DNA of 64,000 nt from Antedon mediterranea (lineage: Eukaryota > Echinodermata > Crinoidea > Comatulida > Antedonidae). Shown here in pieces: positions 1 to 61,600 of the stretch (the stretch's first letter is position 1; every line of letters begins with the position of its first letter). The notes below the pieces were generated by a model. That model ran no database searches. It was not told where the DNA came from and was given only the letters and a program-made list of their open reading frames with translations. The position numbers and the translations under genes were made by a program. The stretch lies in the NCBI RefSeq assembly GCF_964355755.1, contig NC_092678.1:5366922-5430921 (forward strand). The letters are read 5' to 3'.

Positions 1-1
1 T

Positions 2-2792
2 TTTGATGTAAGCCGTATATACGAAGGATACAAATTGAACGAGCTAAGACTTCTACTGAATAAGCGCTGTGATGGAGCGACGTTAGCTGAAAAACGCAAC
101 GGAGCACTGAATTGGTTTCGTGAACTCGAAGCCAAAGGTTATATTTCTAAGGAACCTACAGATGTAGAAATTCTGTTGTCGTTGCTAACGAAACAGAAGT
201 GACTGACGCCGTATCCTTAATAGACGATTATATAAAAAAACATCCAAACAAGAAGGAAAACGTTACGAAGGGCCTACCAATCACACCATTTCGGAAAAGA
301 CTTCTAAAAGCTGCAAAAGCAAACCAGAGGGATGTACAACTTATGTCTCCTGCCTACAAGAAGCTCCAAAATATAAAATTTGACAATATTTTTGATTTCA
401 TTTTTAAACTTGAGCAAGGTTGTGAACTGGAGGAGGAGAACCCAGACACAATAACAAAGTTTGCAAAATGTCTGTCAGAAAATGCTTCAAAAATACTTCT
501 CGGTAAATATTATTTAATGACAAGTAAGAGAACAATAATACAAAAATAGAGTAATAAAAACTTATGGCATTTAGGTATGGAATTGAAATTGATATAGAGA
601 GTTGGCATAACCAGAATGAACAACAAGTAGAATTGGATACTGAAAAGAACCGGTAGCTATATTACCCAATACTGAAATTAGAAAAATCATTTCCTTGTTA
701 TTTTGTGATAATTATAATTCATATGATTAATTCAATAGAATAACCATAATATCGTGGGATTGCATTATTATAGGAATCTTTTTAAAAAACAAGGCCAACA
801 GCCATTAAGTCGCGTGCTAGAATGCATAGTGATACCGGACCGACAGACAGACCGACCGACCGACCGACATAGTAAACTATAGAGTCGCGTCCACGCGACT
901 AAAAACATGCATTTGATGCAAGTGTATACAATAGTTAAACTTATTGATTCAGGTACATCGGAGCCAGCTACATCGCAGTCAGGTACATCGCAGTCGGGTA
1001 CATCGCAGCCAGGTAGGCCTACGTCTACGGAATCTCCAAATACTACTAGAGACAGAGGCGTAGAAGGTAAAAATAAAAAGTGTCAAATTACCTTGAATTA
1101 CCTTCAAATGTTTTACACAATAATTGCCTTTTAAAATAATTTCTTCAAACTTTCATATTGCTGTAATTTCTTTATTTACTTAAATAAATTAATTTTATTT
1201 AAAAAAATTAATTCTCTTCTCCGTCTCAGAACGTACGTGGCGGAGAAGAAGGTAACATTCGAATACTACTATAGTTTTCAGTCAATAATCCAACCTGCTC
1301 TTATCGGGTCCTTAATATTTATCAGACAATCTTTCTTTAACAAGTTCAAGCGAATTTATTTATATAAACGCTACCTGAAACAATTACCAACAATAATACA
1401 TGGAATAGTTGACCATTGCTTCAATCTTATCGATAATGTGGAAAACAAGGAGATCATTTGAAAACTATGATCTTGATAATATTAAAAACGTCATTCCTAT
1501 TAGGCCTACTGTAATTTTATTGTGATTTATTTAGGCCCCAATTAGTTCAATTAAATTATTCGAAATAATTAATTCAGCCTCAGAATATCTAGTGATTTCT
1601 TCAGTATTACACAATCGTCTGATTTTTTCAAAATTACTTTCTTTAAGACAGTGTATATAATTACACCCTCACCATTAAAATAAATTTCATTTGTCATTTC
1701 AGATGAGCCTGATAACGCAGCTGTTGCCACAAGTACTACACCTATGGTAATACACGATAGGTATAACTAACATAGCATTATGCTATAGTAAACAATTATT
1801 AGGGTAATCCCACACAACTAAACCGTTATATGTTACTTATGTTGCACTTATTTACAGGAGGTTATACAAATTATTATATTAATTAAATAAATCATTATTT
1901 AGGGGGAGACCTACAATACGCGCTATGGTTTGTAAAACCTAAGTTGTCCGAAAGTGAAATTACTACATAGTATTTTCATATCCAGTTGAGCCATATAATA
2001 ATTTTACCATTTCCCACCCTCTAATTTTCAAAATGGATCTATACATCGTAACCAAGTGTTATACTATAGGAACTACTTTATAACATTTGCGCAATTGAAT
2101 CAACATAGAATTTCGCCTTCCTGATGTACGGTCCATAGTCATTTGGTGGATCCAAAGAGTAATTGAGGTTAGCATTGAGCTTAAACAATTGTTGCCTGAT
2201 TACATGGTTAATGACAATGGTTTATATTGTTTATTTCGATTAGGAACACTGAAACAAGCAGACTGAAGAGGATACAGAATTTTACAAAAAGTAATTATCA
2301 ACTGACAATATTTATATTCGATCTTTAGACTGAATAACAATCAAAAATGACATTGCGTTATGAGCATGACTAATATAAACTTATATATATATATATATAT
2401 TCATCATCATAAAATATATTTTTATATAAATAAATTTATTTATTTTTATTTCAGAAAATAAAAAGCTGTGTGTGTTTATTATTATATGGACACTATTGCT
2501 CCTATGTATTGGCTCGGAATTCGTAATCATTTTTTGTACTTCTTCAATAACGGGATTTTTAGTTGTTTTTATAATTTCTATAATATTACTTGCAATCTCT
2601 ATTTTCTTGTCAATCTGTTTTGGAGAAAAGTTTGAAAAATGTATTACTGCAATTGCAATAATCGGGACTTCAATTCCATTTTTTGTCATACTTTATTTCT
2701 GGGCGATTGAAAAGATAGGAGATAACAGTAATGAAGATATTATAACAACACAGTTACCGTCGATGTCTAATGAAACAACTGCTTTTATTTGA
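2..2792 (+). CDS. DED-X-3TM gene 1 (5' end outside window; frameshifted)
   Basis: This is the 5'-truncated first member of the DED-membrane family. Exons: 2-502 (DED plus module X), 953-1066 (Ser/Thr/Gly linker with repeated GTSQS-like units), 1703-1760, 2244-2290 (basic RIQNF segment) and 2455-2792 (three membrane segments, stop TGA). Exon phases (1-1, 1-2, 2-1) match the intact gene at 31.1 kb. In the first exon the DED frame (core LNELRLLLNKRC) runs into TGA at 200-202. The rest of the exon (ending FAKCLSENASKILLG) is in another frame, so one base is missing near 175-180 relative to sister copies. The first exon (MSAKQ-type) lies outside the window. It is probably a pseudogene or carries a sequencing error. 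The product would be a membrane-anchored death-fold protein; that role is inferred from domains only. Confidence 0.6.
781..906 (+). repeat. CCGA-rich interspersed repeat, short form
   Basis: The element runs from AACAAGGCCA through a (CCGA)n stretch to a terminal hairpin GTCGCG-tcca-CGCGAC followed by TAAAAA. The same ends recur, in either orientation, at 4262-4380, 28570-28685, 49045-49765 and 60090-60805, with a one-ended copy at 15255-15345. It sits in the intron between the DED exon and the linker exon of the first gene. Class is unknown. Confidence 0.6.
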
Positions 2793-4875: not shown

Positions 4876-7800
4876 ATGTCGGCAAAACAGGGGAGTAAAT
4901 TATCTACCGTAAGTATACGATTTCGAAGGTTTTTACTTAGTAGTATCTGGTACTAATAACTATGGTGTAAAGTCTATAAACTATCCATTGTAATCTGTTT
5001 GAAGAGATAATTTCTTTGACGGCGGTGAATGCAAATGAATTTGAATTAGTTGCTTCTAGTGAGGGGTAATTACAAAACAAAGATTTGCCATTTGATAGGA
5101 CTACCGTGCCTCTGGGCGACAGTCATATCCGACAGTATTATACTGCAAGTACAGGCCTACTGTATATTTACATAGATGATAATTGCACGCTGATTATTCA
5201 TTCATTACTGATACATCAGGATATTTTTTTCAATTTCATATTTTGTTTACCGTTACAGACAACAGCAAGTCCCGATACATTCAGAAAATTACTTGAAGAC
5301 ATAAGTAATGCATATAGTGGTAAAAAAAGATATTTTTGGTTAAGACTTTTATTAAATGACCACTGTTCAGGAGGTATGTTAAGTAAGCCTGTAGATGGCA
5401 TGACAGGGCTCGATCTGTTTAATGACCTCAAAGATCAGCATTACATTTTTCCTGATCCTACAGATGTCGAGATTCTGTTAGATATTGGTACGGTAACAAA
5501 GCAGGCCTCGGTTGTTGAATTAATAAAAGATTTCAAAGAGAAGTATCCAAATACCGATGCCAACTACAAGTCCAAATGCAAAAAAATATCAACATTTCGC
5601 AAAAACCTTTTCAATGCTGTAAAGTCAAATGGTAATCCTGTAAAAAAAATGCATGCTAGCTACAACGACGAATTAAAAGGAGAAGTGTTTGATGATATTT
5701 GGGATTTTGTGTTCAAGCTGGAAAAGGAAGATTGCTTGACCGAGATTTCTAAGGAAAGATTTGCAAACCTACTCGACGGGAGGGCAAAGAAGATACTTCT
5801 AGATGCAGCGAATGGAAATGCACAAGGTGAATAAGCAGTAATAATCATTCCTTCTATTTGAAATCGTTTGAATTATTACAATAACAATAGGTATAAAAAT
5901 GACCAATACAAACTGTTAAAATAGCAATGCAAGAAAGAGTAGTAAACATGATGCTTTGCATAGGCCTATTAGAAAATGAACATAATTGTCAAATAGACCG
6001 TTTTCAATTTAGATTTAAAAATTGTTTACCTAATTCTCTGTCCTATTAAATATCACATTCATAATATTCGTAATAAAATGTCTTTTTTTTCTGAATATGG
6101 TTCAGACTTTAAAACCTGAAGATGTAATAGAAAATAAGAAACATTCTTGACTTTTTTGTTCTTCTGGTATTATAGTTGAAGAAGAAGCTTCTGAGGTATA
6201 CACACCCTACACACCCGAGTTGGCCAGAGGACAAGGTATTATTATTTATTATCAAAATAATTTCAACCAATTTTAACAATATATCATGACGATGAAGATA
6301 TCAACTTCCATTACTTACAGTTGATTTTCATTTTGTTTTGGAAAACTGTAACTCTAACCATAATGTTCAAAGAAGAGAATTCTCATCCCAAATTAATTAA
6401 TTTATATTCACAATTTACACAGTAAGCAAAATAATTCCCTTTTTTACTTGTATCATACAGTAGTCTACTTTTAATAAATCATAAATAATTGTGGAGTTGT
6501 TGGATCGAAGTAGCGATGACCTTACAACATACGTTTTGTTTTTGTAGTATCCATTAGCCTGATTTCACAAAATCTTAAAGCTCAGGTACAGGCATGAATT
6601 TTAAATATAATATCTGGTTAATTGTACATAAATCAAATATGTGTAACAGAAATCAAGATGAAAAACCATGAATTTCCCCTAATATGGTCAAATACAAAAA
6701 CCAGGAAGACTTTTTTTCAGTAGTTAGGTAGTTAACATAATGTAATAACATGTCTGGTGACTCCCTAGAAGGTGAAAAAAGATGGTGGATATACGGTGGA
6801 TAATTTTTGCTATAGCATGAAAATAAAATTCTGAAGTTGAATAAAAATACCAGAAATGTAAAATTCAAGTTATATTGCCTATATTTAGTCATCTGATAAT
6901 ATTTTTTACCACACCGTTTATTTTTCATAGCTTTTTAAAATGCCTCTCTATTTTCAAAATTTGTGTACAAAAGAATAGATTTTACTGTGTAATTTGAACT
7001 ATCCCCACACTGATATGAAAGTGCTAATTTTCAAAAAACAAATAAAATTCCAAAAATTATGAAACATAGGGGAAACTATAGATCGATAATTATTGGAATG
7101 TATGATCAATAGAAATGTTTTGCCCGCACCTGGCCTTTAACGAGACTGCCAATAAAGTGTAGCTAATATTCCGATTCTCGTGTACCATGTTTGAAAGAAA
7201 GAATGTACAGAATAAATTTTAGGTTGACTTTTTCAGGTGAATATCATCACACAGGAGAAGAAGAAAATAAACGGATGATTGAAGAACCTTCCACATCCCA
7301 GACTGATCCGATAGAAGAAGGTCATATTAAATATCACATTCATAATTAATCGTAATAAAATGCCTTGTTTTTCCGTATTATGAGAAAATTGTTCAGACTT
7401 CAAAACCTTATGATGTGGCAGAAAACAAGAAACATTCTTGCTTTTCTGTCACTGAATAACAATATTTAATATATGTTTTATAGATATAACATATCTAATC
7501 TTAATTTTCAAAGATGAATCTTCTCGTTTAGTTGAACAAGAAGGTTCTGTGGAATCCACACCCGAGTTGGCCAGAGGACAAGGTAATGTTATTTATTATC
7601 AAAATAATTTCCACCAATTTTGAAAATTTATCATGACGATGAAGATATAAATTTCCATGATTTAAATTTGATAGGATAACTATAACCCTTCATAATGTTC
7701 AAAGAAGAAAACTCTCATCCCATATTATAAATAACTTATTCTAGTGACGAGTGCATATCATGTATTGTTTTTCTTGTTTACTTCAGTCATCATCAAAGTT

Positions 7801-9899
7801 ATTGTTTGTTTTATCTGGAGATTCAGACATAAAGCCATTATGACTTTTTTAAATCTCCACACACAACCAAATGTAGAATTTTTCAATATTTATCAGTAAA
7901 AATGTACTTATACTATGTTGTGTGAAATAAAACTGAAAACTGAAGTCTAAACAACTCCAAATAAAGTGTAGCTAATTCCGGTTCTCGTGTGCCATGTTTG
8001 CAAGAAAGAATGTACAGAATAAAGATAACTTTTTATGTGAATATTTTGACACAGAAGACGAAGAAAAAGAAGAAGAAGAAGAAGAAGAAGAAGAAGAAGA
8101 AGAAGAAATTGTACAGATGATTGAAGAACCTTCCACATCCGAGACTGATTCCACGGAAGAAGGTACATATCAGTCCTGCTACTAAAATTAACATGTACAG
8201 TGAAATGAGAAAAAAATTGTTACATATTACAGTTGATGGAAAATACCAATATTGCATTCACTAGCCAAAAGTAACAAAATGAGATAGTGTGATGATAATA
8301 CAACTGACAAAATGGACTTCTGTAATGTTCAATTTTTTATTAACTAAAATGAAATAACAATTGTTATTCATTAAATCAATTTAGGTTAATATTCAAATCT
8401 ACAAAATATAAAAACAGTAATTCGAAATGATAAATTGAGCAGGACAGGCAGCAACTATACCATGCATACCGTATGGCCTACTGGCACAATAGTAAAATTT
8501 ATAAATAATAGAAAATTAAAACAAAATTGTCTTTGTTACCGTAATACAAAATTGACAGTATTGTTTTTAAAATAAAATATGATAATTGCCCTACTGAATG
8601 TAATACCTTGAAAAATAGTAGGCATATGTTTTTGAAAATATGAGTTTCAAAAACCAATAACAATTGTTTGATCTCGGAAAACAAACACCGTAGTGAAAAT
8701 GAAAACATTTCTTTTTTCTTTTCAGTTGTGCATGATGGAGACACATGGTAAATGACCTCTAGGTATAATAACATAATATTAGCTAATTATTCCGGTAAAC
8801 AATTATTGTATCACACGAATAGTAAACATTTAACTGTTTAACTATTACGTAAGATCTCCCTTCACAAAGCGAAACCCAACGAGGTTGCCTGAAATTTATG
8901 GAACAAAATAATCCAAAACAATGGCGAAGTTTACAGAACAACTATCCAGAGGTATCACCACTCACTAACTCCTTAAAAACGGATCTGCGTTCTTAAAACT
9001 GGATCTGCGTTCCCTTTTTAAGTTTGACCAAAAAGAGTGACTTCACATTTGCGGAATTCAATAGTTTTTTGAAAATATACTAAGAGGATTTGAAAATAGA
9101 ATACTGAAGGTTTAGAATAGTCCAACATAATTATTATTTGGCTATTATGGTTATGTGTTTTATTATATTGTTTTAATTAGCTTAATACTGAAGAGGATTC
9201 AGAATTTTATCGAAGGTAATTATTAATTTAAGACAAAATCTTAACGTAAATATAATGTAAATTGATATATACACCTACATAACAATGTAGATAAAAATGA
9301 CCGAAGTTAAACGTTGAATTACACACAACAGACTGTTTCATGAAGGAGATAAAAATATATTTTCAATCATCAGGTTTTATGCTCCGAGTCTAAAATTGTT
9401 GGTAAGAACTATTAGGCCTATAATCATTTACATAAAATAAATTAGCAGCTCCATCACTCCGTAATTATACTCCACACAATCATGAATGGCAGTTGTAAAC
9501 TATAAATATTTACATAAGCCTCTTCCTACTGAATCTTTTTCCAGTAAGACTTAATTTATTAATAATAATTAACTAAAGCTAGCATTTTTTATTCCCAATA
9601 CTTTGAAAGTGTTTTCTATTTATTTATTTATTTCAGAAAGAGAAAATCGATTTCAACAATGTTGGTGCGTTTGTGGGATTCTATTGATACCGTGTTTTAT
9701 ATTGGAAATAATATTTTATGTTACTTCAATTAAAGCGGGATATATAACTTTTCTTATAATTTTCATATTACTAGTTGTCATTTTTGCTGTATTGTCATAC
9801 AAATTTGGTAAAAAATATAAAGTATTTATCGAATGCATTGCTGCAATCGTTACTATAATTTCAGTGCTTGGCGTTATTGACCTAGTTCTTAGTAAATAA
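4876..9899 (+). CDS. DED-X-linker-3TM gene 2
   Basis: Predicted 413-residue protein. Exons: 4876-4908 (MSAKQGSKLST), 5259-5826 (DED, then module X), linker exons 6176-6235, 7237-7320, 7514-7582 and 8055-8162 (polyGlu from a GAA tract), 8726-8747, 9181-9215 (KRIQNF), and 9637-9899 (three hydrophobic segments, ending LVLSK). Lengths sum to 1242 nt, in frame. The DED core reads LRLLLNDHCSG then LFNDLKDQHYI then DVEILLDIG; the RxDL charge motif of classical DEDs is not visible. Module X contains DDIWDFVFKLE and RFANLLDGRAKKILL. The sixth linker exon must use the donor at 8748, because the donor used by sister genes at 8763 would read a TAA first. Role inferred: membrane-tethered death-fold adaptor with DED and linker on one side of the membrane. 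No signal peptide is seen. Confidence 0.7.
8055..8162 (+). other. Linker exon with GAA microsatellite encoding polyGlu
   Basis: A GAA repeat (about 8060-8108) encodes a run of glutamates between an acidic start and the segment IEEPSTSETDSTEEG. The exon is a duplicate of 7237-7320 (which carries IEEPSTSQTDPIEEG), but the original acceptor has decayed and a downstream CAG at 8052-8054 is the likely replacement. Long Ser, Leu and Phe runs on the opposite strand are shadows of this repeat. Confidence 0.65.
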
Positions 9900-11259: not shown

Positions 11260-14200
11260 ATGTCGGCAAAACAGGGGAGTAAATTATCTACCGTAAGTAT
11301 ACGATTTCGAAAGTTTTTACTTCGTAGTATCTGGTACTAATAACTATGGTGTACAGTCTATAAACTATCCATTGTAATCTGTTTGAAGAGATAATTTCTT
11401 TGACGGCGGTGAAGCCATGGAAATGCAAATGAATTTGTTGCATCTAGTGTGGGGGGGGGGGGCAATTATAAAACAAAGATGTGCCATTTGATGTCGTAGG
11501 ACTACCGTGACTCTTGGCGACAGTCCTATCCGACAGTATTATTAATTATCATTATTATTAATGCAAGTACAGGCCTACTGCATATTTACATGGCAGATAA
11601 TTGCACGCTGATTATTCATTCATTACTGATACATCAGGATATCTGTTCAATTGACATATTTTGTTTACCGTTACAGAAAACAGCAAGTCACGAAGAATTC
11701 AGAAAATTACTTGAAGACATAAGTAATGCATATAGTGGTAAACAAAAATTTTTAAGACTTCTATTAAATGACCACTGTTCAGGATATCTGTTAAGTAAGC
11801 CTGTAAATGAAATGACAGGTCTCGATCTCTTTAATGACCTCAAAGATCAGCATTACATTTTTCGTGATCATACAGATGTCGAGATTCTGTTAGATATTGG
11901 TACGGTAACAGATCAGGCTTCGGTTGTACAATTAGTAAAAAATTTCAAAGAGAAGTATCCAAACACCGATGCCAACTACAAGTCCAAATACAAGGACAAA
12001 CAAATATCAACATTTCGCAAAAACCTTTTTGAGGCTGTAAAGACAAATAGTAAGCCCGTAAAACAAATGCATGCAAGCTACGACGATGAACTAAAAGGCG
12101 AAATATTTGATGATATTTGGGATTTTGTGTTCAAGCTGGAAAGGGAAGATTGCTTGACCGAGGCTTCTAAGCAAAGATTTGCAAACCTCCTCGACGGGAA
12201 GGCAAAGAAGATACTTCTAGGTATGTACTGCATGTTTTTTAATCATACTAGGCCTACACTGCATTTATTAGTAAAAAAAGTAACAGAGTTATACATACGC
12301 CAGCAATAATTTTACAAATGCAACAAGCCTACTCGCCTAACAAACAAAACGAGTAAACAATGATAATTTAGTAATAATAAGAGTAATATTATGTATTCTA
12401 ATTAATGTGACCACTGTATGTGGGCGTTATAATAACGATATGCGCTATATAAGAACAGACTATTATTATTATTATTATTTCGATCTCTTAATCACACCGT
12501 ATACAACATGTTCAATCCATATTTATTTATTTGATTAACCACAAAAATTCAGGTCTTCTTATCAATCTTCCTCCGCTTTATAATCGGATTTTTTTTCAAA
12601 ATGGTTTTTTCTCTTAAAGCATAGTTAACTCTCTTTGTAATTGTAATTTGTTGTGATTTTTCTCTCTTAAAATGAATCGTCCTAACACTTGCAACACTGA
12701 TATTTTTTCTCTTGCCCGTTGTCGAATTAGCGTAACTAACAATGGTTTTATTCAAAGATTATCCAAGCTTTACAACTCAATTTATTTATTTATATATTTA
12801 TTTATATAAGCAGGGAAGAGTTTAACTCTTCCCTGATATAAGACTATCTATATTTTGTTAAAAGTTTGTCAATTTTTAGATATAAAGTTTTTAAAGCTTT
12901 TTAATTTTGCCAAGTTTTGTATAATGTTTCATATTGTATTTTCTGTGTTTTTAGGTATATATTTATATCCAAATATTTTAAGTCTTCCTATAATTTGCGA
13001 TTTTTCGCTGTTAGATGTAGTTGAAATAAAATAAAATAGATAAAACTAAAATAATATCATTATCATTATAATTAAATGTTAACAGGTGAGTCGTCGCTAC
13101 CAATTACATCTACAGAACCTGTATCCATGCCTGAAAACGAACGCAGTGGACAAGAAGGTAATACTTTTTGTAAAACAAATCCAACATCAAAATATACAGG
13201 CCTATTTCTTATTAGTCTGCATAACGCTATCATGTAAATTTTCATTTTGAGCCTCGAATATGGAATAAATCTTATTATTATTATTATCTATTATAGGCTT
13301 CAGTGTTGTTGATAATGGGGAACCGTCAACATTAAATGGAAAGGTAAAAACAAACCAAAGACTAACTGATAAGGCATTACACACAATAGCACATAGTTTT
13401 AATAAGGTACTATACTACGGAAAGAATATTATATAGCTATTAAGACATCATAGTAGAGACGATTAAACACACTTTTTATTTTGTAATTTAGCTTTCTGCT
13501 TTTCATCATCCTCACGATCTTGAAAATTAATAACCCAATATTTCTTCTTACCAAAAAAAGATTTCGTTATTTAATAAATTGTTTTTTCCTCAAGCAATAT
13601 TTCGAAACATAATATAATTGATTAATTATTTTTAAGGAAAGAAAAGAAAAAACACTAGATACACAAAGCATGGAAGGAAACGATGAAGTTATCAATAAAG
13701 CGGAGATCATCAAAAAACAAATAGAAGAGAACATTGATTGTGTTAATATAGGTAAACAGAAATTTCAAAACCGTGTAACAACATGTGAAACAGAAATAGA
13801 GAAACACAAGCAATCTCAAATTGACAGCATTAGTAAAATTCTTTCTGAAGATATACATGTCCTTGACAAAATACGCAAAGAAAAAAATGCAACATTTGCG
13901 AAGCAAGAAAGACATCTTCAATCACAGCAGACTGCTTTGAAGGATGTGATCAGTGACAGTATCAAAAACCCAAAGAAGACGGGGAATATTAAGTTGCAAA
14001 AAGTGGAGGAAGAAATCAAACGATATTCAGCAGAGACCTTTTTATTTGATAAAGAACACCATAAGCCAACAATCATCGAAGTTGTAATACCATATCCAAT
14101 TTTAAGATTAAAAATTGTTGACTGGGACTTTATTATTGATAATAAGGATAGTTCATTTTCAGTAACAAAGGGACAACCATTTACAGTGAATGTAGCAAGA

Positions 14201-15232
14201 CAGAAGAGCGATACATTTTTATCACCGATGTCTTTAGATGCTAGACTGATATGTCAATCATCAGGGGAAGAAAAACCTCTTGCTGTGGTGGAAGACAAGA
14301 AACATGGGAAATTTAGAATAACAGACAAATGTAATGAGGAAGGCAAGTGGAGGATGGAGGTTATGACTCCTGACAAATACTACATCAAAGGATCTCCAGT
14401 AAATATCACAGCAGTACCAATGGGAATTGTGAATGACACGACTATTACTGTATTCAACAAAATACCAAGAGGCCAGCGTGTCACAGACGTCGTATTGTTA
14501 GATACGGAAGGTAGCATGTTAGTATCAACCAACTGTGCATTTTTCAAATTCGATAACTCAGGAGAGTGTGTTATCAATACAAAATGTAAGAAAATAGTAA
14601 AAAGGTTGCATCAAAGTAATGGTTACATTATTTACATTGAAAAAAACAGTATTGTAAAGTGTGATGATACATTGAACAAAATAACTACATTTAAATTTGA
14701 TGATAACGAATTGGACTCGCCATCTGGCTTGATAGTAAGTAATGACACACGATTCATGTATGTTGTAGATCAATCAGCTCACTGTGTCTTCAAATTCAAT
14801 ATCGATGACGGGAGCCTGATTGGTACGATAGGTGAACATGGTAGCAAAGAAGGTCAAATGTACAATCCAAAGGATGTTGCTTTATTAGGGAGAGATCGTA
14901 TCGTGGTTACCGACTTCGGTAATCATAGAGTTCAAATGTTTGATGTAGTAGGCCTACACGGGAAGTACCTGAAAACAATTGCTGATAAAGGCGAGGGCGA
15001 TGGACAAGTTGAAGATCCCTGTGGAATTGTAATAGACGACGATGACAATATAATAGTATCCAGTAGAAATAAACTACAACTATTTGACAAAGATGGTGGT
15101 TTCTTAAGACGAATTGATGAAACTAAGGATGCTATTGATCTTCCAAGTTCAATCACTGTAATCTCAAAAAGACCAAGAAGATTAGCAGTTGTAAATTCAG
15201 GAGGGAAAAATGTGAAAGTATACAATTACTAA
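11260..15232 (+). CDS. DED-X-coiled coil-filamin-NHL gene (TRIM-like without RING or B-box)
   Basis: Predicted 763-residue protein. Exons: 11260-11292 (MSAKQGSKLST), 11677-12220 (DED about residues 18-103, module X about 118-193), linker exons 13086-13157 and 13297-13343, and a long last exon 13637-15232. Lengths sum to 2292 nt, in frame. The last exon holds a TRIM-type coiled coil (about 244-385), a filamin/Ig-like domain ending in the strand GSPVNI (about 390-492), and an NHL beta-propeller (about 505-763; for example DFGNHRVQMFD and SSRNKLQLFDKDG). AATAAA follows the stop at 15247. TRIM2/3/71 proteins have the same coiled coil-filamin-NHL order after RING and B-box; here the front is replaced by a death-fold block, so RING-type ligase activity is not expected. 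Inferred role: oligomeric adaptor whose NHL propeller binds RNA or protein. Confidence 0.75.
12811..12835. repeat. Short perfect palindrome in intron
   Basis: CAGGGAAGAGTT and AACTCTTCCCTG are 12-nt reverse complements around one base. It lies in the intron after the DED exon of the NHL gene. Nothing else suggests a function. Confidence 0.7.
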
Positions 15233-17311: not shown

Positions 17312-21048
<3,737 letters not shown>

Positions 21049-39900: not shown

Positions 39901-39906
39901 CCTGAT

Positions 39907-40945: not shown

Positions 40946-41008
40946 CTATAATTTTTAGGATACGGAAGACCCCTCCATTGTGACACTTCTATTCAGGAGA
41001 CATCTCTA

Positions 41009-47882: not shown

Positions 47883-48974
47883 CTAAATTTATCCAAAAAA
47901 ATTTTTGACAAAGACGATAAATCCATTACTGTTACTAAAAGGCAAACATTTGTGGTGAGGGCAACTTGTTTAGATAAAAGTGATACATGTAATGTAGTTG
48001 CTACTCTGATAACTCCATCAGGTGAACAAACTGCCACTGAGGTAGAAGACATGGGAAATGGAGAGTATAGAATAAAAGGAAGATGTGACGAGGAAGGTGA
48101 CTGGAAGATGAAGGTCATGGCTGGAGTGGAACACATCAAAGGAACACAAGTTAATATCAAAGTGGAACCACTAGGACTTGTACATACAATTGATAAAATA
48201 GCAGACCACAAAGTAGATAAAAAATACTCAATAACGGATGTAGATCTATATAAAGATGGTTGTATCTTAGTATCAAGTCTCTCTAATGAGTTACTCAAGT
48301 TTAATCAATCAGGTGAATTTGTTGCCAATATTCAATTGGCACACAATGTTAGAGTCAATAAAATGTATACAATGGTTAATGGTTGCATTATGTATAGCGA
48401 CACAGAAGGAAAGAGGGTAGTAATGTGTAATGACAAATTAGAAGAAATCAGTCAATTTGGTAAAGGAATATTGAAACATCCAAGTGGGTTGACGGTAAAC
48501 AATGAAAAAAGAGTTATGCATGTTGCAGACTTTATTGATCATTGTGTGTTTAAATTTGATATCGATGATGGAAGGAAGCTGGGTGAGATAGGTTTTGAGG
48601 ATGGAGAATTGTATTATTCACGTGATGTCAGTTTAACCAAGGAAGGTAATTTATTGGTTACTGATTGGGATAATCATAGAATACCAATGTTTGATGCCAA
48701 TGGTACATTTGCCAAAACATTTGTAAGTGAAGGTGAACAAGATGGAAAAGTCAGGTATCCCTGTGCTATAGAAATGGACAGGGATGACAACATAATAGTA
48801 GCTAGTGAAAACAAAGTACAATTATTTGATGAAAATGGGGTTTTCATCAAACGAATAGATGGCATAAATGATGGCATTAATAGTCCATGTGGAATCAGTG
48901 TGATATCCAATAGACCAAGGAGAGTAGCCATTGCAAATGGTGGAAAGAATAATGTGAAAATATTTAATTACTAA
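47883..48974 (+). pseudogene. Filamin-NHL exon lacking its B-box start (unit A)
   Basis: The frame is open from 47883 and nearly identical to the 58.9-60.0 kb copy (filamin-like, then NHL with TDWDNHRIPMFD and ASENKVQLFDENG). About 620 bp present in unit B (58329-58951), containing the linker exon, the splice acceptor and the whole B-box, is missing; the join is near 47902. Without an acceptor or early ATG the exon is probably not expressed as an NHL protein, although an in-frame ATG at 48050 would make a truncated one. Confidence 0.7.
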
Positions 48975-51690: not shown

Positions 51691-52603
51691 TGTTACTTGG
51701 CCTTGTTTGGGATGGATTGAGGTGTGTGAGGACGCCGTACAAGCATTGGTCCTGACGCCTTTTCAAACATCTCTTTTGTTTGTGCTTTTAATATGTTTGG
51801 TTCTTTATTAAAACGTTGTGGTTTTTTTTCCGGGGAAACCCATATTATTAAGGGGAAGATTTGATAGGTCCCGAATGTTTCCCTTTAATGGGATTCTATT
51901 GTATTATCTTAAACAAAATAGGCCTGGGTAAATATTTAGACTTATTATTCCAAACATTATATTGATGTTTGGGTAGTTTTATTATCAAAGATGCTGTACT
52001 TTACCAACATTTATAACATATTATATTGCATTGTAAATTTGTTTTACGCTTTTACAATGCAGTACTGTATACATTGTCAAATGTCAATTGTACCTAAAAT
52101 ACTACAATGCCTTAAATAAAATAATAAGGTCGGCTGCATAAAATAAAACTTTAACAAGTTAAGTAATTTCCCCAGAGACATGTCATATTTGTTACTATGG
52201 TAACTATTCAAACATAGTCTTATCAATGTGCATTATCAAACAATTGAAGAGGAAATTATGAACCTGTAAATTAGCTACTGCTTGCGTTTACTTTCTGTAA
52301 AGCATACAGATTTTTTGGGCACGAACAGACGGACGTGTATTGGACTAAAGTAGAAAAACAGCGATCAATTTGGAAAAAGTGAATTTGAAGTAAGTAATTA
52401 CTGTATTGTAAGCATAACTTCTTCAACATTCGCAAACAGCAGCAAACATTTGTCAAAATGTATCTAGACTAGACAAAAACACTTTGGGACAACCACAATA
52501 GCCTAATCGCATTACCAGCTGCAAAACAATTGAGCTAAATTGAATTACTTATTTATTATGTAGTCAATATCAATATTATTATTATTCATTCCTCTTCCAG
52601 AAA

Positions 52604-55600
52604 ATGTCAACAGACGACCTAACATTTGCAGACTTCCTTTCAGAATTAAGTAATGAGTATGAAGGTGAAAAAAAATTTTGGCTGAAATTGTTGCTATTCA
52701 ACCACTGTTCAGGAGCATTGTTAGGCAGAGACGACATCCAAGCACATGAGCTGTTTAATGAGCTTGAGGAAAAAGGTTACATTACTTTTGAACCATTAGA
52801 TGTAGAAGTTCTAGTGGACATTGCTAAAGTAACAGAGCAGAAGAAGGCTTTAGACCTAATAGAGAAGCTTAAAAATGAGCAAGTCAATAAGAAAGAAGAC
52901 GACTTTACCAATGGTAAACCAATAACACCATTTCGCAAAAACCTTTACAATGCTTTAAGACAAAATTCAAAGAAAGTACCAAAAATTGCTGCTGCCTACC
53001 GCCTTGGACATAAAGAATATAAGAATATTTGGGATCTTGTATTTGAGCTGGAAAAGGACAAACGTCTGCAGGATGAAAAGGAGTCAAAGGAAAGGTTTGC
53101 AAAACAACTCGACAAAGATGCAGGAGACATTTTGCTCGGTAGGTAATAATAATATAAAATATACACATACTCACAAGATTCAGGATCAATCATTACATAA
53201 AAGAATTAGTTTCCATTGGGGTCTTTAAAAGAACAATTCGAAAGTAAATCAAAGAAAAATAATTTAAACGTTCAACAATAACTCTATACTGTACTTTTGT
53301 TTTTAATTTTAATCATTTTTAATTGTTTCAACAGTGTGTTACATTGGCCTATGGCAATTTTGCAATTTGCGTTTTTAGCAGTATTTTAACATTGGCCTAT
53401 TAACAGCATTTTATGTATTGTTTTATTATTGACTGGTATATCTTTATTCAAAAATGAAAACAACAAATTTACAAAAAAATTCATAAAATATAGCAGCATT
53501 TAGGGACGCATGCGTCCCATGCTGAATTGCATTTCATGATAACATTAAAACAAGTGATAACAATTTAAAAAAAAAAAAAAAGGATCGAGGGGCTTAACTC
53601 ACAAATTAAATTCGTTGATTAAGTTAATCAAATAAGGCAGAGGACTGTTACTATGACGCACTGTATTACAATTGACATTGCGAATCCTGTCGGCATTACG
53701 GGTGTTGTATTTGTGCACAACATTACCCCTGGAAGGAAGAAGTGAGAACAATTTAGACTGAGGATTCAAGATGGATTTAGCAAAGGCAATACATAGGTCC
53801 CGACGCCTGTGACTCAGACCATCCAGGCGCAACGTGACCAAAGCATCGTCATAACCAGTATAATTCCTACCCAAAACAATTCTCCAGGCACGTTTCTGGA
53901 CCCGTTCGATTGCATTAATGTGATCAATTGTAAGGCCACCATTCCAAACGGGTACCGCATATTCTAAAACTGGTCGTACCGCACCTAAATACACTGACAC
54001 AAGATCATCAGAAGGAACACCACGACGTTTAAGCGTTCTCAAAGAGAAAAGTTTGCTATTACCTCTTCTAACTATGTAATCAACATGTCTGTCCCACTTT
54101 AAGTTGGACTGAATAAAAATGCCAAGCAGTTTAACACAATCACGTGTGAAAATAACCTGATCATTAAGGATGATATTAGGAGGAGGAGGGGGTCTGTTAG
54201 AAAAACAAACGTCCATAATGTGACATTTTTTAGGGTTAAGTCTCATGTTGCTTTTTTCGGCCCAAGCAAGAAGACTAGATGCACAACCAGGAAGTAACGA
54301 AGATTGACTAATCTTACGGGATTCTACAAATGTAAGATCATCAACATATTTATAGTGTTGGATCAGTTGATCATTGTTGTTACCGGAAGCGTCATTAATC
54401 ATTGCCGAAAAGACAATTGGTCCTAATTTAGTGCCCTGAGGCACTCCAGCGTTAACAACAGCTTTATCGGATAAGGTGCCCTTATATTTAAGTTGATGAA
54501 CACGGCAACTCAGAAATTCAGCAATCCAAGCGATATTAGCAGAGGGAACATTCATGTCCCACAGACGCTGCACAGCTATAGAATGATCAACAAAAGATCG
54601 AATGCTTTGGAGATATCCGTAAAAAGGATAGATGAGACAGCACGAGGAGTATCAGCGTGACGATGTAGCTTATTCAAAACACTGATAAGGCAATGGTTGG
54701 TAGAGACTCCTTTCAAATTACCGAATTGCATTTTATCCAACTTAGCCTTCATTGCTGAGATGGTGTCAATAGCAACGAAATGTTCCGCAATCTTCGCGAA
54801 ATGATCCGTAATGGCAATAGGTCTCATATTGCTCAAGGAAAAAGGAACATTGACAGCTTTGGGAATTGGAACCACATAGGCCCGCTTCCATTGGTGTGGA
54901 ACTACCGATTCTTGATATGAACAATTAATGACATGGCAAAGAGGACCGGAAAGTTCATAAGCAAAAGATTTAATAAACTTGGCAGATATCAGATCGGTCG
55001 GGTCCACACGAGGTGCGTAGTTTGACCTTATTCAGTTGCATGAAAACTTCCCAAGGCTCTACTTGTTGAGGTTTATTCGATGGAAGAAAGGCTGGTAATA
55101 TCTTTCTGTCTAATGCCTCAAGTGAATCATTGACATTGGTCAAATGAGCACAAACACTATCAGCAATAACTTTTTCAGCGTTATCCAACACGATATCTCT
55201 TTGTTTACATCGCCCCGAGAGGGTACGAATGTGTTTATGCCACTCAGCGGAAGACATACCTTTTAGGTTCCTAACATTTTTAGCGTAGTAGTCCTTCATG
55301 TCTGCACGTATAACTGTATTTACCTTGTTACGAAAAAATCTCCACAGGTGTTCCTTGTTTTTTGCAAAGGCGTCTTGTCTCTTTTTAATTAATGATTTCG
55401 TCAGAGCGGAAACCCAAGGTTTGTCAGTCGGATGACGTTTCACAACACGTTTCGGGAAGAACGCATCAATAGAATCCTGGAGAGTATCGTAGAATTTTGT
55501 ACATTTTTCTTGTGCTCCAGAGGCACTAAAAATATCACTCCAGTCGTGATCAATGATCCACTGTCCATATTCACATATTTTGCTATCAGGCATCGGGCGG

Positions 55601-58600
55601 ACGATCTGTTTACTTGACTTATTGCAAACGCGAACATTTGCAACAGGCTTCAAAAGAACACAATTATGGTCACTCAGACCTAAGGGTGGTAATATAACAG
55701 GAGTATTATAATGTACACTCACGTTTGTGATTATCTTGTCCAAAATAGCATCCTTTCTGGTGGGTTTATTAACAATCTGTGTCAACGATTTAGATAAAAT
55801 ACCTCTTAGCTCAAGACGATTAAAGTCACCCATGATAATAATGCCGGTCAAAGGCTGCTTAGTGAAGATCTGGTCAATTGTTGATGACAAGTGATCGATG
55901 AGGGAATTGTGCTTTCCGGAAGATAGTAAACAACACCAATAACCAACCTGGCAATAGACCTAGGTAGTCGTCGCGGACGAGCTACAACCCATAGGCATTC
56001 GGTATCGTTTGACACAATTACGTCTTTAAGGATATTACAGTTGATGTTGTCTTTAACGTATAAGGCGACTCCACCACCACGTCATGCATCACGGGAGTTA
56101 GAATGAAGCGTATATCCGTCAATACTTAAACATTCCACAGGATGGTCAGAAGCAAACCAAGATTCAGTAATCGCAGCAATGTCAACATTATTATGGTCTA
56201 ATATAAGTTCAAATTCCTCAAGTTTATTGTTCAGTGATCTAGGGTTGCTGAGCAAAAAAGATGGAAGAACAAACTCACCATTTTTTTTGTACGAGCACAC
56301 CGTTTTTATATTAACGAGATTGTTCAGGTTTTTGTCTTAATTATGCCAAGCAAAATGAATTTCCTAGTGTACCAATAAAATATCAGGTATAACAGGTCTA
56401 ACTCATATATCAGTCTATTAGCTCTAACACAAAAACAGGTAATAATTGTTACTTTTTTTAAAGTAGTAGGCCGGTTAAACATTTATTATTCAGAATGCTT
56501 TTTATTGAAGGATGACTTAGAATTTGGACAGTCTAGTCCTAGCTTAAATTCGGTTTTCAGAGATGCTTTGGGAAAGAAATTGTAAAAATCTGTTTATCAA
56601 ATTTTTGTACACAGTAGATGAACAAGAACATTCAGATGCGTCCACGGAGAGTGTTGATCTCATGGAAGGAGGTAATTTTATTTTTCAGCATTAAAATGTA
56701 TCCCACAATTGACTATTTGATATCACCCTGTGCTCTACATTTATGGCCAGAGATATCCCTTGCCTTTTTATTCATCAACAAATTTTTAAAATTATTCAAG
56801 TTTACTACTTTAATCTTTAAAAAAACCACTCTAATTAAGACATTATAATTACTTGTGTACCATAAAGCAATAACAGCAACACTGGCATTCTTTTAAAGAT
56901 ACACATAGGCCTACAGATGTGCAAGGTGTATTCACATTACAGTCTGAAGATCCTGAAGATGGTAAACATTTTAAATTTTCATGAAAAGTATTTTAAATTA
57001 CCTGGGAATCAGAAAAATACACTAAAACATTGTTTAATCTTGTTTTATTATTACATTTCTAGCTCTTTATGATTTCTACGTTGTAAGTGATGATGGTCTT
57101 TGGGAAAAAGGTGTGATAGAGAAGCTGCAAAAACGAAATCCAAATATAAAATGCCTGAGTCGCCAAGACAAGAAAACTTCACTTGATAGAGTAGAAAACT
57201 TGGTAAATCTTACAAAGATGTGTAGAACGGTAGTAGTGGGCTTTACGTCAAAAGTACATAGTCATGTTTCACGAAAAGTTGCAACACATATGGTTGACCA
57301 AAATGTATTTGAGAACAAGAAAACGAGCACAACTGATTGTAGTAAGAATAGACGAGGATGTTAGATTACCCACAAACTTGCAAACATTAGATATTTTCAA
57401 TAGTTGGGAAACTGATATTTACAAAAGGATCCTGAATACACGAAATGAAATACGTAAGTTTATTTCACATCTAGCAATATTTTGATCTCCATAGCTTGAT
57501 GTCATAATCCATAGCAAAATTTAAAACTTGCAAGCAAGACCAAATCATATTATTAATCAAATTACAATATATTTATGAAAATAAATTGAAAGATTTATAA
57601 ACAGAGTATACTTGAGATTATAATGGTTTTTGTTTCATTTTGGGCTTAATCATTTTCTTTTTTCCCAAACGCATCCAACAGGGAGAAACTTACCGGATGG
57701 ATAAACTATTAGGCTTATCATTTTTAGAGCTTAGGGGGTGGATTAGAAATACTCGTGAGTTATAACTGTGATACTAGGATACTAGGACAGGATTGAACCC
57801 ATTTAAAAATTAAATAATCTAATATTTGTATACACATAGGTATTCCAATTAAAGCAACAACAAATTATCCCGAAAACGAAACTTGTGTTTTCAATCCTTC
57901 AACTTTTAAGAGATTGAAAGAATTTTTTCTAAGAAGATTTTGCGCCATATTAAGATGTATTGGAAGGGGATCTATAATCTTCCACCTTTTTGTAAACGAT
58001 GGCAGCAGGTTGAAGATGCTATGGGAAATTCATGTAAAGAAAGAGTTGGATAAAGAACTGGAAGCAATATTGGATTGTTCTGGATGTAAATTAACAACAG
58101 ATATAGATGCACATGATTACAAGGTTGTTCTTAGAAAACTAATGGTAAAAAGTACGTGAGTTGATTTTTTAAAAAACACCATCTATTTTTATTATGTTCT
58201 AATTGTAAGATGAGATATATTTATTGTGCGCTTTTTTATAGGTTTACATTAATTTTTATCTAAATTGTTTCTTAATGGACCAGAAACTATATATACTATT
58301 GAAACGAATTACTAAATTTATCCAAAAAAAAGTTAAACTTTGCCAATTTAACAGTTGCAGTAGGGACCCTTATAGGAAACTTTGTAATTTTGTTTACAAC
58401 TATTTTGTGAATATATGATGAAAAAGTGCAATAACAAAAACATTCATCAATCATCAATTTCGTTTAGGTGCAAGCAGCCAAACAGCAACCGAAGGAGCCA
58501 TTGCATCAATCAGTACTACAGTAAGTTTTCAATTTATCTAACATGCCGATGGACATGGCATGCAACAAAAGCCAGTTTCGGACTTGAAATAGACACAATT

Positions 58601-60021
58601 TAACCCTTTTCAATGCAATCAGGATAAAAAATATTCAGATTTGTGTAAATAACCAAAGTTCTAAGAAAAATCGACCCAAAATCTTTGAATGCACACGAGA
58701 ATTGTCACCATGACCACAGTTAGTTAGTCCCAAAATTGGAAACTCGTTAATAACTAACTATAAATACAACATTTTACAGGTGTCAAATCAAGAAATGCAT
58801 ACTAGATGTGAAGACCATCCAGATAACGAAGTACTATTGTTTTGTGGAACATGTAGCAAACGTGCCTGCAAGAATTGCCAACATTTTGTGCAGTGCTATA
58901 AAAAACATGATACTTTACCAATGATATACCTGTCATCAACACTCGTTATCATTGATAAAGACGATAAATCTATTACTGTTACTAAAAGGCAAACATTTGT
59001 AGTGAGGGCAACTCGTTTGGATAAAAGCGATGCATGTAATGTAGTTGCTACTCTGGTAACTCCATCAGGTGAACAAACTGCCACTGAGGTAGAAGACATT
59101 GGAAATGGAGAGTATAGAATAAAAGGAAGATGTGACGAGGAAGGTGATTGGAAGATGGAGATCACTGCTGGAGTGGAACACATCAAAGGAACACAAGTTA
59201 ATATCAAAGTGGAACCACTAGGACTTGTACATACAATTGATAAAATAGCAGACCACAAAGTAGATAAAAAATACTCAATAACGGATGTAGATCTATATAA
59301 AGATGGTTGTATCTTAGTATCAAGTCTCTCTAATGAGTTACTCAAGTTTAATCAATCAGGTGAATTTGTTGCCAATATTCAATTGGCACACAATGTTAGA
59401 GTCAATAAAATGTATACAATGGTTAATGGTTGCATTATGTATAGCGACACAGAAGGAAAGAGGGTAGTAATGTGTAATGACAAATTAGAAGAAATCAGTC
59501 AATTTGGTAAAGGAATATTGAAACATCCAAGTGGGTTGACGGTAAACAATGAAAAAAGAGTTATGCATGTTGCAGACTTTATTGATCATTGTGTGTTTAA
59601 ATTTGATATCGATGATGGAAGGAAGCTGGGTGAGATAGGTTTTGAGGATGGAGAATTGTATTATTCACGTGATGTCAGTTTAACCAAGGAAGGTAATTTA
59701 TTGGTTACTGATTGGGATAATCATAGAATACCAATGTTTGATGCCAATGGTACATTTGTCAAAACATTTGTAAGCGAAGGTGAACAAGATGGAAAAGTCA
59801 GGTATCCCTGTGCTATAGAAATGGACAGGGATGACAACATAATAGTAGCTAGTGAAAACAAAGTACAATTATTTGATGAAAATGGGGTTTTCATCAAACG
59901 AATAGATGGCATAAATGATGGCATTAATAGTCCATGTGGAATCAGTGTGATATCCAATAGACCAAGGAGAGTAGCCATTGCAAATGGTGGAAAGAATAAT
60001 GTGAAAATATTTAATTACTAA
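52604..60021 (+). CDS. DED-X-(TIR)-B-box-filamin-NHL gene
   Basis: Exons: 52604-53138 (DED and module X; LKLLLFNHCSG, LFNELEEKGYI, RFAKQLDKDAGDILLG), 56615-56671 and 56917-56961 (linkers), 57063-57453 (TIR, frameshifted), 58468-58520 (linker ASSQTATEGAIASIST) and 58780-60021 (B-box, filamin-like, NHL). Leaving out the TIR exon gives 1932 nt in frame, 643 residues; including it breaks the frame by one base. The B-box-type zinc finger shows CEDH, LFCGTC, CKNC and a final His pair (about 240-280). No RING and no coiled coil are present, unlike canonical TRIM-NHL proteins. The intron 53139-56614 carries a dead non-LTR element. Inferred: DED adaptor with a TRIM-like ligand-binding half. Confidence 0.65.
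53440..56340 (-). mobile_element. Non-LTR retrotransposon (CR1/L2-Jockey group), inactivated
   Basis: Minus-strand pieces of one ORF: endonuclease domain at 56300-55600 (ITESW, GDFN, SDHN) and reverse transcriptase at 55040-53599 (GVPQGTKLGP, catalytic YVDD). It is broken by a TGA near 56085, a frame change near 55890 and another near 54575, so it encodes no functional protein. The 3' end lies near 53440, where an AATAAA on the minus strand occurs. Placement in the CR1/L2-like group rests on the look of the RT motifs. It is absent from unit A, so it inserted after or independently of the duplication. Confidence 0.85.
57063..57453 (+). pseudogene. TIR exon of unit B, frameshifted
   Basis: Homologous to 46651-47025. 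Box 1 is LYDFYVVSDDGLWEKG; the central strand is RTVVVGFTSK. The exon is 391 nt against 375 in unit A: five extra codons plus one extra base near 57320-57335. Reading then continues in another frame (AQLIVVRIDEDVRLP, SWETDIYKRIL). The helix after the central strand reads HVSRKVATHMV, with Lys where TIR 2 of unit A has Glu. Confidence 0.75.
57840..58159 (+). other. TRADD-N-like exon (unit B)
   Basis: Closely matches 47410-47729 (GSIIFHLFVNDG, IHVKKELDKELEA, IDAHDYKVVLRKLM) and ends at the same stop with an overlapping GTGAGT donor. It could be a terminal exon alternative to the B-box/NHL end. Because the TIR exon before it is shifted, an intact TIR-TRADD-N product is not expected here. Confidence 0.55.
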
Positions 60022-61600
60022 ACAGAAAAAATGTTTTGTATTTAAAACATTACTGAAAACTTATAAATATGTAATAAGTATTATGTAGGTTAACAAGGCC
60101 ATATAGATGGCTGCAGTCGCGTGCTTAGTGTTTACCGACCGACCGACCAACCTACCAACTGACCGAAATTACTGAACATGTTTAAAAATGTTGAAATGTT
60201 TAAAAACAGTTATATTTTCTTAATTTACACGTGCGTAGCCTGTCACTTTTGACTTACTCGTATAACGTAATTTCGAGTTGAAAAGTAAGTCAAGAAAACA
60301 GAAATCGGGCAAAAAGAGTGCGCAATAACATTTAACGTGCAGTGCGCGCGCAAAAATCTGCGCACTCATGCCAATTTTGTAAACGCTTAAAATTGCCTGA
60401 AACGTACTCTTATTTCATCGAAAATAAATTTTGAAAATTTTAAGCGCGCGTACCCATGCGTTACATGCGCTACGCACATAATTGTATTGCCATATGATGA
60501 TTTATGCCCTGAAATTTATGAGTACCAAATTTTATTTAATTGTGATTCATGGTTGTGAAGATATGATTACAAACGTGATTTTGTTAAATCGTGCGTAGAC
60601 CGTGTAATTTTTTATTGCGCATCGTGAAAACATAACCACATCGATTCCTGGCCATAAGGAATATACTGTGAAAAATACTTAGCTAGATTAAACTGATATC
60701 AAGATAAGGTCAGAAAGCGATAAAACGCATAGTGATACCGGACCGACAGACAGACCGACCGACCGACATAGTGAACTATAGAGTCGCTTCCACGCGACTA
60801 AAAACAAAGAAACTTAGCTTGCTGCAATTTCTGAAACTTTAATGAAATATCTTGTACTAAATGTAATACAGTATAAACTAATGTATGATTAGATTTGATG
60901 ATATTTTAGTAATGAAAGTAGTTGAATGAAAGTGAAATAAAATAAATAAATCCAAATATTTTGAATAGTGAATTTCTCAATTAATGCGTTCCTCTTTAAA
61001 TAGACCGTGGCATATAGTGCAGTCGGTGGTGGTGGTCACTGTGTTGTGCACTAAAACCGTGAAAGACCATAGGTTTCCTTTGATCCGCGGTTCAAATCCT
61101 ATCTATGTGTGTGTGTTCCAACTGGCGGCTTTGAATACATGAGATGTTAAGCCGTTAAGAGTCGAATCCTCTACTTTCTCTACACCCTTTGGTTCTTGTG
61201 AAAGAAGTCCGATTGTGGCGTTTGCGGAACAGGGTGGATTAAGGTTATGTTTTCAATCAAAAAAATAAAAAATTGTTTTTCTGTTATTACTTGATAAAAC
61301 AATAGAATAAACATTGAATAATGGAAGACAATAACTTCGTAAAAACAATAAATATATAAAACTAAAATTTGCTGTTTAGCGGCCAGAGGATATTTACCAG
61401 TGGTCAGCATTTTGACATAAATAATGCTGGCCAAAAAAAAAATTCTTGGACTGGAAATTTTTTGTATTATATGGCTGCCAACACTTTTCATTTTTTTTTT
61501 AAATTGCGATGCATGTCATTTCAGGAAAATTATAAAAAAAATTACTTTTTTTTAGACGAATAATTCTTTTCCTCATCTCTAGAAACCTTTCCATCAGTAA
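60022..61600. other. 3' flank of unit B with CCGA repeat and SINE
   Basis: Copies of the long CCGA repeat (60090-60805) and of the SINE (about 61000-61165), followed by sequence matching 50.2-50.6 kb. No gene. Confidence 0.55.

Follow-up and report, generated by a model that had tools for sequence, protein, structure and literature searches.

The question raised by a 64-kb stretch of the Antedon mediterranea genome (354 Mb; contig NC_092678.1, here G000:C9:5366922-5430921, "the window" below) is what kind of genes are built around an exon that recurs along it, and whether the very different exons behind its copies belong to the same transcripts. A sequence-only reading had proposed a cluster of death-fold genes that combine one N-terminus with three interchangeable C-terminal halves, namely a three-helix membrane exon, TIR plus TRADD-N-like exons, or a TRIM-derived filamin-NHL exon. 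Our analysis indicates that the window is probably part of a tandem cluster within a large, exon-shuffled family of death effector domain (DED) adaptors, in which a common front made of a DED and a module X (together DEDX) is joined to swappable endings. The modules were mapped with profiles from the window copies over 174 kb around the window on both strands. All matches lay on the plus strand, and the cluster extends over 132 kb, from about C9:5358741 to 5491226, the window being its middle part. Coordinates are those of the window unless a contig or locus is named, and the individual exons are listed in Table 1.

The front exon is present in the window in seven full copies (profile matches at 5268-5804, 11686-12222, 31442-31972, 34506-35021, 36594-37061, 41904-42431, and 52613-53140), one frameshifted copy, and one fragment. 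The frameshifted copy 1 is recovered as two hidden Markov model pieces in different frames (-25..199 and 172..504), and copy 3 is nearest to the membrane-type copy at 5268 (83% at the amino acid level). Because the DEDX profile was built on seven of the window copies that it scores, its E-values are partly given by construction. An independent whole-genome search with copy 41904 as the only query recovered five others, at 52613 (2.1e-85), 5268 (1.6e-37), 31442 (1.9e-36), 11686 (2.2e-30), and 34506 (2.0e-16); copy 36594 was absent among the 150 scored places of that search. Judged from these matches, the likeness among the copies is not due to chance, and the shared exon of the earlier reading holds.

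That this exon encodes a death fold is supported by sequence for its first half, which we assign to the DED. Pfam DED matches 26 of 28 aligned members at a lax limit of E 10 (best 2.8e-8), although the window copies alone stay under the Pfam cut-off (best 20.9 vs 35.9 bits). Against solved structures, a profile of the DED half finds caspase-8 (prodomain, E 5.4e-5), FADD, and cFLIP, and a profile from another DEDX subset also finds PEA-15 and a viral FLIP. Matches to PPR designer proteins and other designed proteins were discarded as sums of many sub-threshold repeats. The signals for module X are mixed, and we lean only slightly toward a second DED, so that the front would be a tandem DED of the caspase-8/cFLIP type. 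Both caspase-8 DEDs are covered colinearly by the DED-X profile (at best 5-165 on 3-168), and when X is added to the DED half of the same ten members, the eight caspase-8 chains present in both listings gain 2.4-9.8 bits, while four cFLIP chains lose 0.5-0.6 bit, seven FADD chains lose 0.7-1.1, and five PEA-15 chains shift by -1.6 to +1.3. Two of the profile analyses used 22 of the 28 copies; left out were the divergent copy L043:2813 and five whose X is degenerate or cut short. Two other identities of X were rejected: profile-profile comparison gave no match to the DED half, of which X might have been a repeat, and X does not match TRADD-N either. At two loci (L043 2813-3307 and L042 3762-4322) the normal DED-X copy is followed by another, divergent one.

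Behind this front the cluster has two kinds of ending. Membrane exons close six units (DEDX starts -8180, -25, 5268, 31442, and the pairs 34506/36594 and 65726/66575), and seven DEDX copies (11686, 41904, 52613, 78608, 92139, 103902, 119277) are followed by a filamin-NHL exon. TIR and TRADD-N-like exons lie between DEDX and NHL in five of these seven units and are lacking in two; their orders are TIR-TIR-TRADDN, frameshifted TIR-TRADDN, TIR-TRADDN (twice), and TIR-TRADDN-TIR-TRADDN. Across the 132 kb, each of the six full TIR exons, like the frameshifted one, has a same-strand NHL exon downstream. The architecture of the family in this cluster can thus with fair confidence be read as either DEDX-(TIR-TRADD-N)x0-2-linker-filamin-NHL or DEDX-membrane exon. 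The three interchangeable halves originally proposed are not confirmed: there appear to be two endings, with TIR and NHL in one gene whose spliced models are open in intact units outside the window. This unity is obscured in the window, where unit 7 lacks the stretch with the linker and B-box and the TIR exon of unit 8 is frameshifted.

The splice phases are consistent with this architecture. A phase-1 donor is found in seven of the nine window DEDX copies and pieces, in agreement with the earlier claim that most copies end in phase 1; the two without one, 34506 and 36594, are degenerate in their second half. Acceptor and donor are in phase 1 in the TIR exons of the cluster (six full and the frameshifted one). 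All six TRADD-N exons offer candidate phase-1 sites on either side, and in two of them donors in other phases occur as well. The NHL exons, by contrast, have a phase-0 acceptor in seven of eight cases (by eye; none was seen in the eighth, unit 7), a mismatch that would be bridged by a short phase 1-to-0 linker exon with a GTAAGT donor, located ahead of NHL in units 8, 10, 11, and 12 by scan and in unit 13 by eye. In units 8, 10, 11, and 13 the linker exons resemble one another, whereas that of unit 12 matches only just behind the donor; the scan background is 0.15 candidates per kb of either strand, and unit 11 has one extra candidate. The two kinds of unit also begin differently: in units 7, 8, and 10-13, which are of the NHL type, the start codon lies three bases past the DEDX acceptor, while in membrane-type units coding begins in a short exon of its own, MSAxQGSKxST or a variant, whose donor is a phase-0 GTAAGT. 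TIR and membrane exons have no start codon ahead of the domain and therefore need an upstream exon.

Eight of nine spliced models that were tried are open. Among the membrane type these are genes A2 (287 amino acids, aa) and A4 (277 aa) and, with 291 aa, the unit to the left of the window; among the NHL type, units 10 (1031 aa), 11 (1009 aa), 12 (631 aa), and 13 (1108 aa). Unit 7 is open as DEDX-TIR-TIR-TRADDN over 539 aa, ending after TRADD-N, and the model of unit 8 is not open because of the frameshift in its TIR exon. Since no linker was found, the joining of the only DED-NHL pair of the window without TIR (11686, 13622) is unproven. Outside the cluster the phase rule holds in part. A phase-1 acceptor candidate was found in seven of eight TIR exons, and all five NACHT P-loop exons that were located (L040 behind DEDX, L033-L036 behind TIR) have phase-1 acceptor candidates, with another acceptor phase also possible in L035 and L040. 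The modular, phase-compatible exons of the sequence-only reading are thus borne out within the cluster and elsewhere only partly.

The identity of the downstream modules is supported to different degrees. The TIR family profile matches TLR2 (E 5.6e-4) and TLR3, and Pfam TIR_2 is found in six of 16 members (best 5.7e-7), so that the TIR assignment is supported by sequence match for the family, although the window exons alone have no Pfam TIR match. None of the 15 TIR rows with a residue in the column aligned to the glutamate of the TLR2 KYE motif has a glutamate there. This column would correspond to the SARM1-type catalytic position, and its composition argues that a scaffold is more likely than an NAD-cleaving enzyme. 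The TRADD-N-like assignment is tentative, with Pfam TRADD-like_N in two of seven members (best 8.7e-5) and no match in the two window exons; a whole-genome scan with this model gave two places, both elsewhere in the genome. In the third module, Pfam NHL scores above its cut-off, down to 4.6e-12 in the window, whereas filamin remains under its own. B-box matches are weak in units 8 and 11 and strong in L039; a strict B-box motif scan was uninformative, as it overlooked the weak ones. These exons resemble TRIM-NHL proteins of the TRIM2/3/71 type in filamin, NHL, and B-box, and have relatives among the TRIM-NHL genes with RING that this genome contains. They differ from such E3 ligases by the DED-X in front and by the absence of a RING match from all eight NHL exons scanned in or near the DEDX family (four of the window and those of L039, L027, L025, and L028). 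At L025 (7372-9162, unit 10) a Val/Thr/Ser-rich repeat matched by Pfam Cornifin lies between linker and filamin.

The membrane ending is represented in the window by four exons and one weak fragment. Three hydrophobic peaks, in line with the three helices of the earlier reading, are seen in five of the six full exons of the cluster, and the sixth shows two. As a single query the exon finds five places genome-wide, all in the cluster, and its profile recovers the six full exons. A hydrophobic open frame 3' of a DED-X exon on C4 (L045 4878-5153) is not matched by the profile.

Beyond the cluster, 150 of 342 candidate DEDX places were scored, and the neighbor census further comprised 103 NACHT places of 162 candidates, 115 of 117 NHL rows (340 candidates; two short second pieces out), 16 of 17 TIR rows (the second piece of a broken TIR out), all ten TRADD-N rows, and, with secondary pieces set aside, 24 of 33 caspase rows. 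Sampling of 131 DEDX loci was planned at 10 kb, eight shorter loci being taken, and the circular-shift control (200 shifts) used rough guesses for the sizes of C3, C6, and C11. All listed matches of DEDX, NACHT, caspase, and NHL are on contigs C1-C11. Within 10 kb downstream on the same strand, 26 of the 150 DEDX places have NACHT (five upstream; shifted mean 0.3, maximum 4) and 16 have NHL (seven upstream; shifted mean 0.24, maximum 3), the latter count including at least two cases with another DEDX between; TRADD-N follows at nine and TIR at five. No NACHT match was found in the cluster itself. In a tree of 28 DEDX copies, one NHL pair and one NACHT pair share a single clade (100/99), the two DEDX copies compared in it being 79% identical with NHL downstream in one locus and NACHT in the other, and NACHT requires at least two changes on the tree; exchange of tails behind one front has thus taken place. 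Of the three protein forms once envisaged, the membrane form is retained, the TIR and NHL forms merge into one, and a major partner, NACHT, lies outside the window.

Other neighborhoods were noted in the same survey. TIR exons of the same family stand directly ahead of NACHT exons on C1, C9 (7.8 Mb), and C10, and CUB and MAM domain exons lie downstream of a DED-X exon on C10 (L041 2272-3826). At C2:11006792, C3:27135771, C4:31674583, and C4:31705154 a TRADD-N-like exon lies 1.7-5.9 kb 3' of DED-X with no scored TIR between, and at the C3 place NACHT then follows. Eight caspase matches in tandem (C5:22033627-22136900) have no DED-X nearby.

The modules also differ in how they evolve. Nonsynonymous-to-synonymous rate ratios (omega, dN/dS) were taken from ten pairs hand-picked from a larger pairwise set. 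Purifying selection is shown for the tested pairs of DEDX (0.46 and 0.31; Fisher p 0.019 and 0.006), TRADD-N (0.24; p 0.003), and NHL (0.37; p 0.026), the latter two represented by one pair each. Degenerate DEDX pairs gave 0.64 and 0.73, not significant, and TIR evolution is near neutral (1.14-1.40, which does not differ from 1). A mosaic pattern is seen between units 7 and 8, with 95-100% identity upstream, 72-92% in DEDX-exon windows, about 36-57% in the next intron, and 98.8% in NHL and its 3' flank; identity falls sharply at the start of the DED-X exon (41500-42940 vs 52200-53700). Such a pattern is as expected from gene conversion of parts and is a sign of gene conversion or exon replacement.

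Several observations weigh against one exon-shuffled DED family. PPR designer-protein matches, as summed weak repeats, score above caspase-8 in the profile searches. X alone matches no death fold there, and the DED half aligns with the second DED of cFLIP only, not colinearly. In a further difference from caspase-8 and cFLIP, none of the 150 DEDX places lies within 10 kb of any of the 24 caspase places; a caspase tail was therefore rejected, and caspase output is not indicated. The TRADD-N-like profile has no PDB match, and the donors of the eight TIR exons outside the cluster are in phase 1 in five cases, in phase 2 in one, and not found in two. The ten lowest-dS pairs span omega values of 0.31-0.69 (DEDX), 0.24-0.80 (TRADD-N), and 0.35-0.83 (NHL). 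Finally, tandem two-gene units could mimic the DEDX-NHL order, against which only linker and phases argue, and the linker scan was empty in copy 3/NHL1, unit 7, and the DEDX-NHL locus L039 on C4.

According to the likeliest of the rival explanations, two neighboring gene types, one with DED-X and, in part, TIR-TRADD-N and the other an independent TRIM-like gene with filamin-NHL, were duplicated together and never form one transcript. We consider this unlikely. It would explain why the NHL acceptor is in phase 0 whereas DEDX, TIR, and TRADD-N end in phase 1, and would agree with the B-box exon of unit 11, which opens with ATG right past its acceptor, with the lack of a linker in copy 3/NHL1 and L039, and with the 117 NHL matches of the genome, of which the one inspected away from DEDX, L047, is a gene with RING, B-box, and NHL. 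However, the 1-to-0 exon lies between the two parts in five units and is alike in four of them, methionine is absent from the first 40 residues of the unit 10 NHL exon, neither B-box nor RING is matched in the NHL exons of units 10 and 12, and units 10-13 give open frames of 631-1108 aa.

A second alternative makes the membrane form the executioner of the system: NLR or NHL sensors sharing its front would trigger it, and it would act as a pore or membrane disruptor gated by the DED. It would fit a product with three hydrophobic helices and little else behind its DED front, and one membrane-exon pair (38023/68067) has an omega of 2.69 (confidence interval 1.45-7.45; Fisher p 0.034). This value is uncorrected, belongs to one of 15 pairs, and rests on five synonymous changes; moreover, its dN of 0.248 exceeds the divergence of the flanking introns only after filtering to well-aligned columns (K 0.155), the introns being 24% different over all aligned columns. 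For this reason there is no more than a hint of selection on the membrane exon. In the partner DEDX exons X is degenerate, an anchor in the membrane or a decoy would fit equally, and relatives among known pore formers were sought via Pfam only, which together leave the executioner a rather improbable explanation. A bolder version is a longer shot still: exchange of phase-1 exons on one caspase-8-like tandem DED would occur genome-wide, NACHT and NHL sensors would share this front with the small three-helix protein, a sensor-nucleated DED filament would cluster the membrane form into a pore or disruptor and cause caspase-free death, and the membrane exon would be engaged in an arms race. That the cluster is merely decaying, its copies mostly pseudogenes and its architecture a relict, is very improbable, since the frameshifts in copy 1 and the unit 8 TIR, the missing linker of unit 7, the fragments at 39906 and 40875, and a TIR omega near 1 are opposed by frames open from end to end in A2, in A4, in the copy to the left of the window, and in units 10-13, and by DEDX, TRADD-N, and NHL pairs under purifying selection at p < 0.05.

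The explanation that we favor remains a DED adaptor family with a common front and exchangeable endings. A front of DED and X, mostly ending in phase 1, would be spliced either to the three-helix membrane exon, giving a product of about 280 residues, or to an optional TIR-TRADD-N cassette (0, 1, or 2 copies), the 1-to-0 linker, and filamin-NHL, giving about 630-1110 residues; elsewhere in the genome the same front precedes NACHT exons, the core of NLRs. The DED front might serve as a homotypic or filament-forming interface that draws DED-bearing sensors (NACHT or the NHL propeller) and membrane-anchored forms into one complex, in a setting of innate immunity or regulated cell death, and tandem duplication, gene conversion, and the swapping of phase-1 exons would generate variety. 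The lack of caspases near DEDX and of the TIR glutamate makes a scaffold or membrane output appear more likely than proteolysis or NAD cleavage. If this holds, one adaptor exon links NLRs, TRIM-related NHL proteins, TIR/TRADD-N, and small membrane proteins in a single network whose modules can be counted and tested singly. The recurring splice phase would then be a concrete mechanism for assembling such repertoires, and the unequal rates at which DED, TIR, and membrane exons change give a hint as to which parts are kept constant and which can vary freely.

Among described systems, the family looks most like the expansions that Kaur et al. (2021; eLife 10:e70394, PMC8195603) describe from marine invertebrates, in which a constant front of DED and TRADD-N is combined with variable tails and with partners of the TRIM or STAND type, and it appears to belong with them rather than to be a wholly new kind of system. 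As far as the passages of that article go, both are large animal families with a DED front, TRADD-N, TRIM-type and STAND/NACHT-type partners, variable tails, and retroelements nearby. An immune or cell-death role is plausible from the domain content and from this precedent. The front here is, however, DED plus X, and TRADD-N belongs in this cluster to an optional cassette behind TIR. A constant DED-TRADD-N dyad is not borne out, as TRADD-N lies within 10 kb downstream at only nine of 150 DEDX places; it may exist at four of the nine (C2, C3, and two on C4), where no scored TIR intervenes. RING-less filamin-NHL, three-helix endings, and a shared splice phase were not met in sections 10 and 11 and further passages of PMC8195603, and the words "NHL" and "exon" occur nowhere in its main text. 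In the literature surveyed, no title or abstract opening names a DED-TIR-TRADD-N-NHL or DED-three-helix gene, which does not in itself show absence from print. Animal NLRs with a DED or TIR front are comparable in that DED-X (26 of 150) and TIR exons precede NACHT elsewhere in this genome, in contrast to the cluster. Domain grafting in lophotrochozoan RLRs (PMC8998645), immune genes in which DED and other fronts were changed by exon-level events, is, in the parts of that account considered here, the reverse case: there the front varies and the helicase is constant, whereas here the front is constant and the tail varies.

Table 1. Exons and exon pieces recognized in the window.
Feature	Position	Strand	Evidence and remarks
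DED-X exon copy 1	1..502	+	5' part left of window; frame broken inside exon; donor G|GT phase 1 at 502
Membrane terminal exon, copy 1	2455..2792	+	two hydrophobic peaks; acceptor TTTCAG before 2455
First coding exon MSAKQGSKLST, gene A2	4876..4908	+	upstream-region alignment; phase-0 donor GTAAGT; model open
DED-X exon, gene A2	5259..5826	+	profile, donor, spliced model
Membrane terminal exon, gene A2	9637..9899	+	spliced gene 287 aa, open
First coding exon MSAKQGSKLST, copy-3 gene	11260..11292	+	upstream-region alignment
DED-X exon copy 3	11677..12220	+	profile and donor; next recognized exon downstream is filamin-NHL, joining unproven
Filamin-NHL exon NHL1	13622..15232	+	Pfam NHL 4.6e-10; phase-0 acceptor
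TIR exon remnant	23667..23798	+	profile E 7.6e-5, profile 2-31 of 128
Filamin-NHL exon NHL2	24484..26052	+	TIR remnant ahead; no DED-X within 12 kb upstream
First coding exon MSAQQGSKSST, gene A4	31088..31120	+	upstream-region alignment; spliced model
DED-X exon, gene A4	31433..31970	+	profile, donor, spliced model
Membrane terminal exon, gene A4	32777..33039	+	spliced gene 277 aa, open
Candidate first coding exon MSEINISST, gene A5/6	34132..34158	+	upstream-region alignment
DED-X exon, degenerate X, first of pair	34506..35021	+	profile
DED-X exon, degenerate X, second of pair	36594..37061	+	profile; candidate partner of 34506 and membrane exon
Membrane terminal exon, gene A5/6	38024..38289	+	profile, hydrophobicity
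DED-X fragment (X half)	39906..40106	+	profile; phase-1 donor
Membrane exon fragment, weak	40875..40955	+	profile E 0.0024
DED-X exon, unit 7	41895..42429	+	start codon 3 bases past acceptor (CAG|AAAATG)
TIR exon 1, unit 7	46126..46515	+	phase 1-1
TIR exon 2, unit 7	46651..47025	+	phase 1-1
TRADD-N-like exon, unit 7	47410..47729	+	profile; model ends by reading past the exon's donor
Filamin-NHL exon, unit 7	47883..48974	+	no acceptor seen; lacks the linker and B-box stretch that unit 8 has
DED-X exon, unit 8	52604..53138	+	profile and donor
TIR exon, unit 8	57063..57453	+	frameshifted
TRADD-N-like exon, unit 8	57840..58151	+	profile, splice phases
Linker exon, unit 8	58468..58520	+	phase 1 to 0, then GTAAGT
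Filamin-NHL exon, unit 8	58780..60021	+	weak B-box match; phase-0 acceptor

Apart from these exons, an element of the long interspersed nuclear element type with endonuclease-like and reverse-transcriptase pieces lies on the minus strand in unit 8, in the interval that separates its DED-X exon from its TIR exon (53599-55959). Repeats were noted at 16789-17314 (a 262-bp unit in two copies, 98% matches), at 18992-19516 (a 525-bp AT array), and at 61710-61808 (an 18-bp repeat in 5.5 copies).

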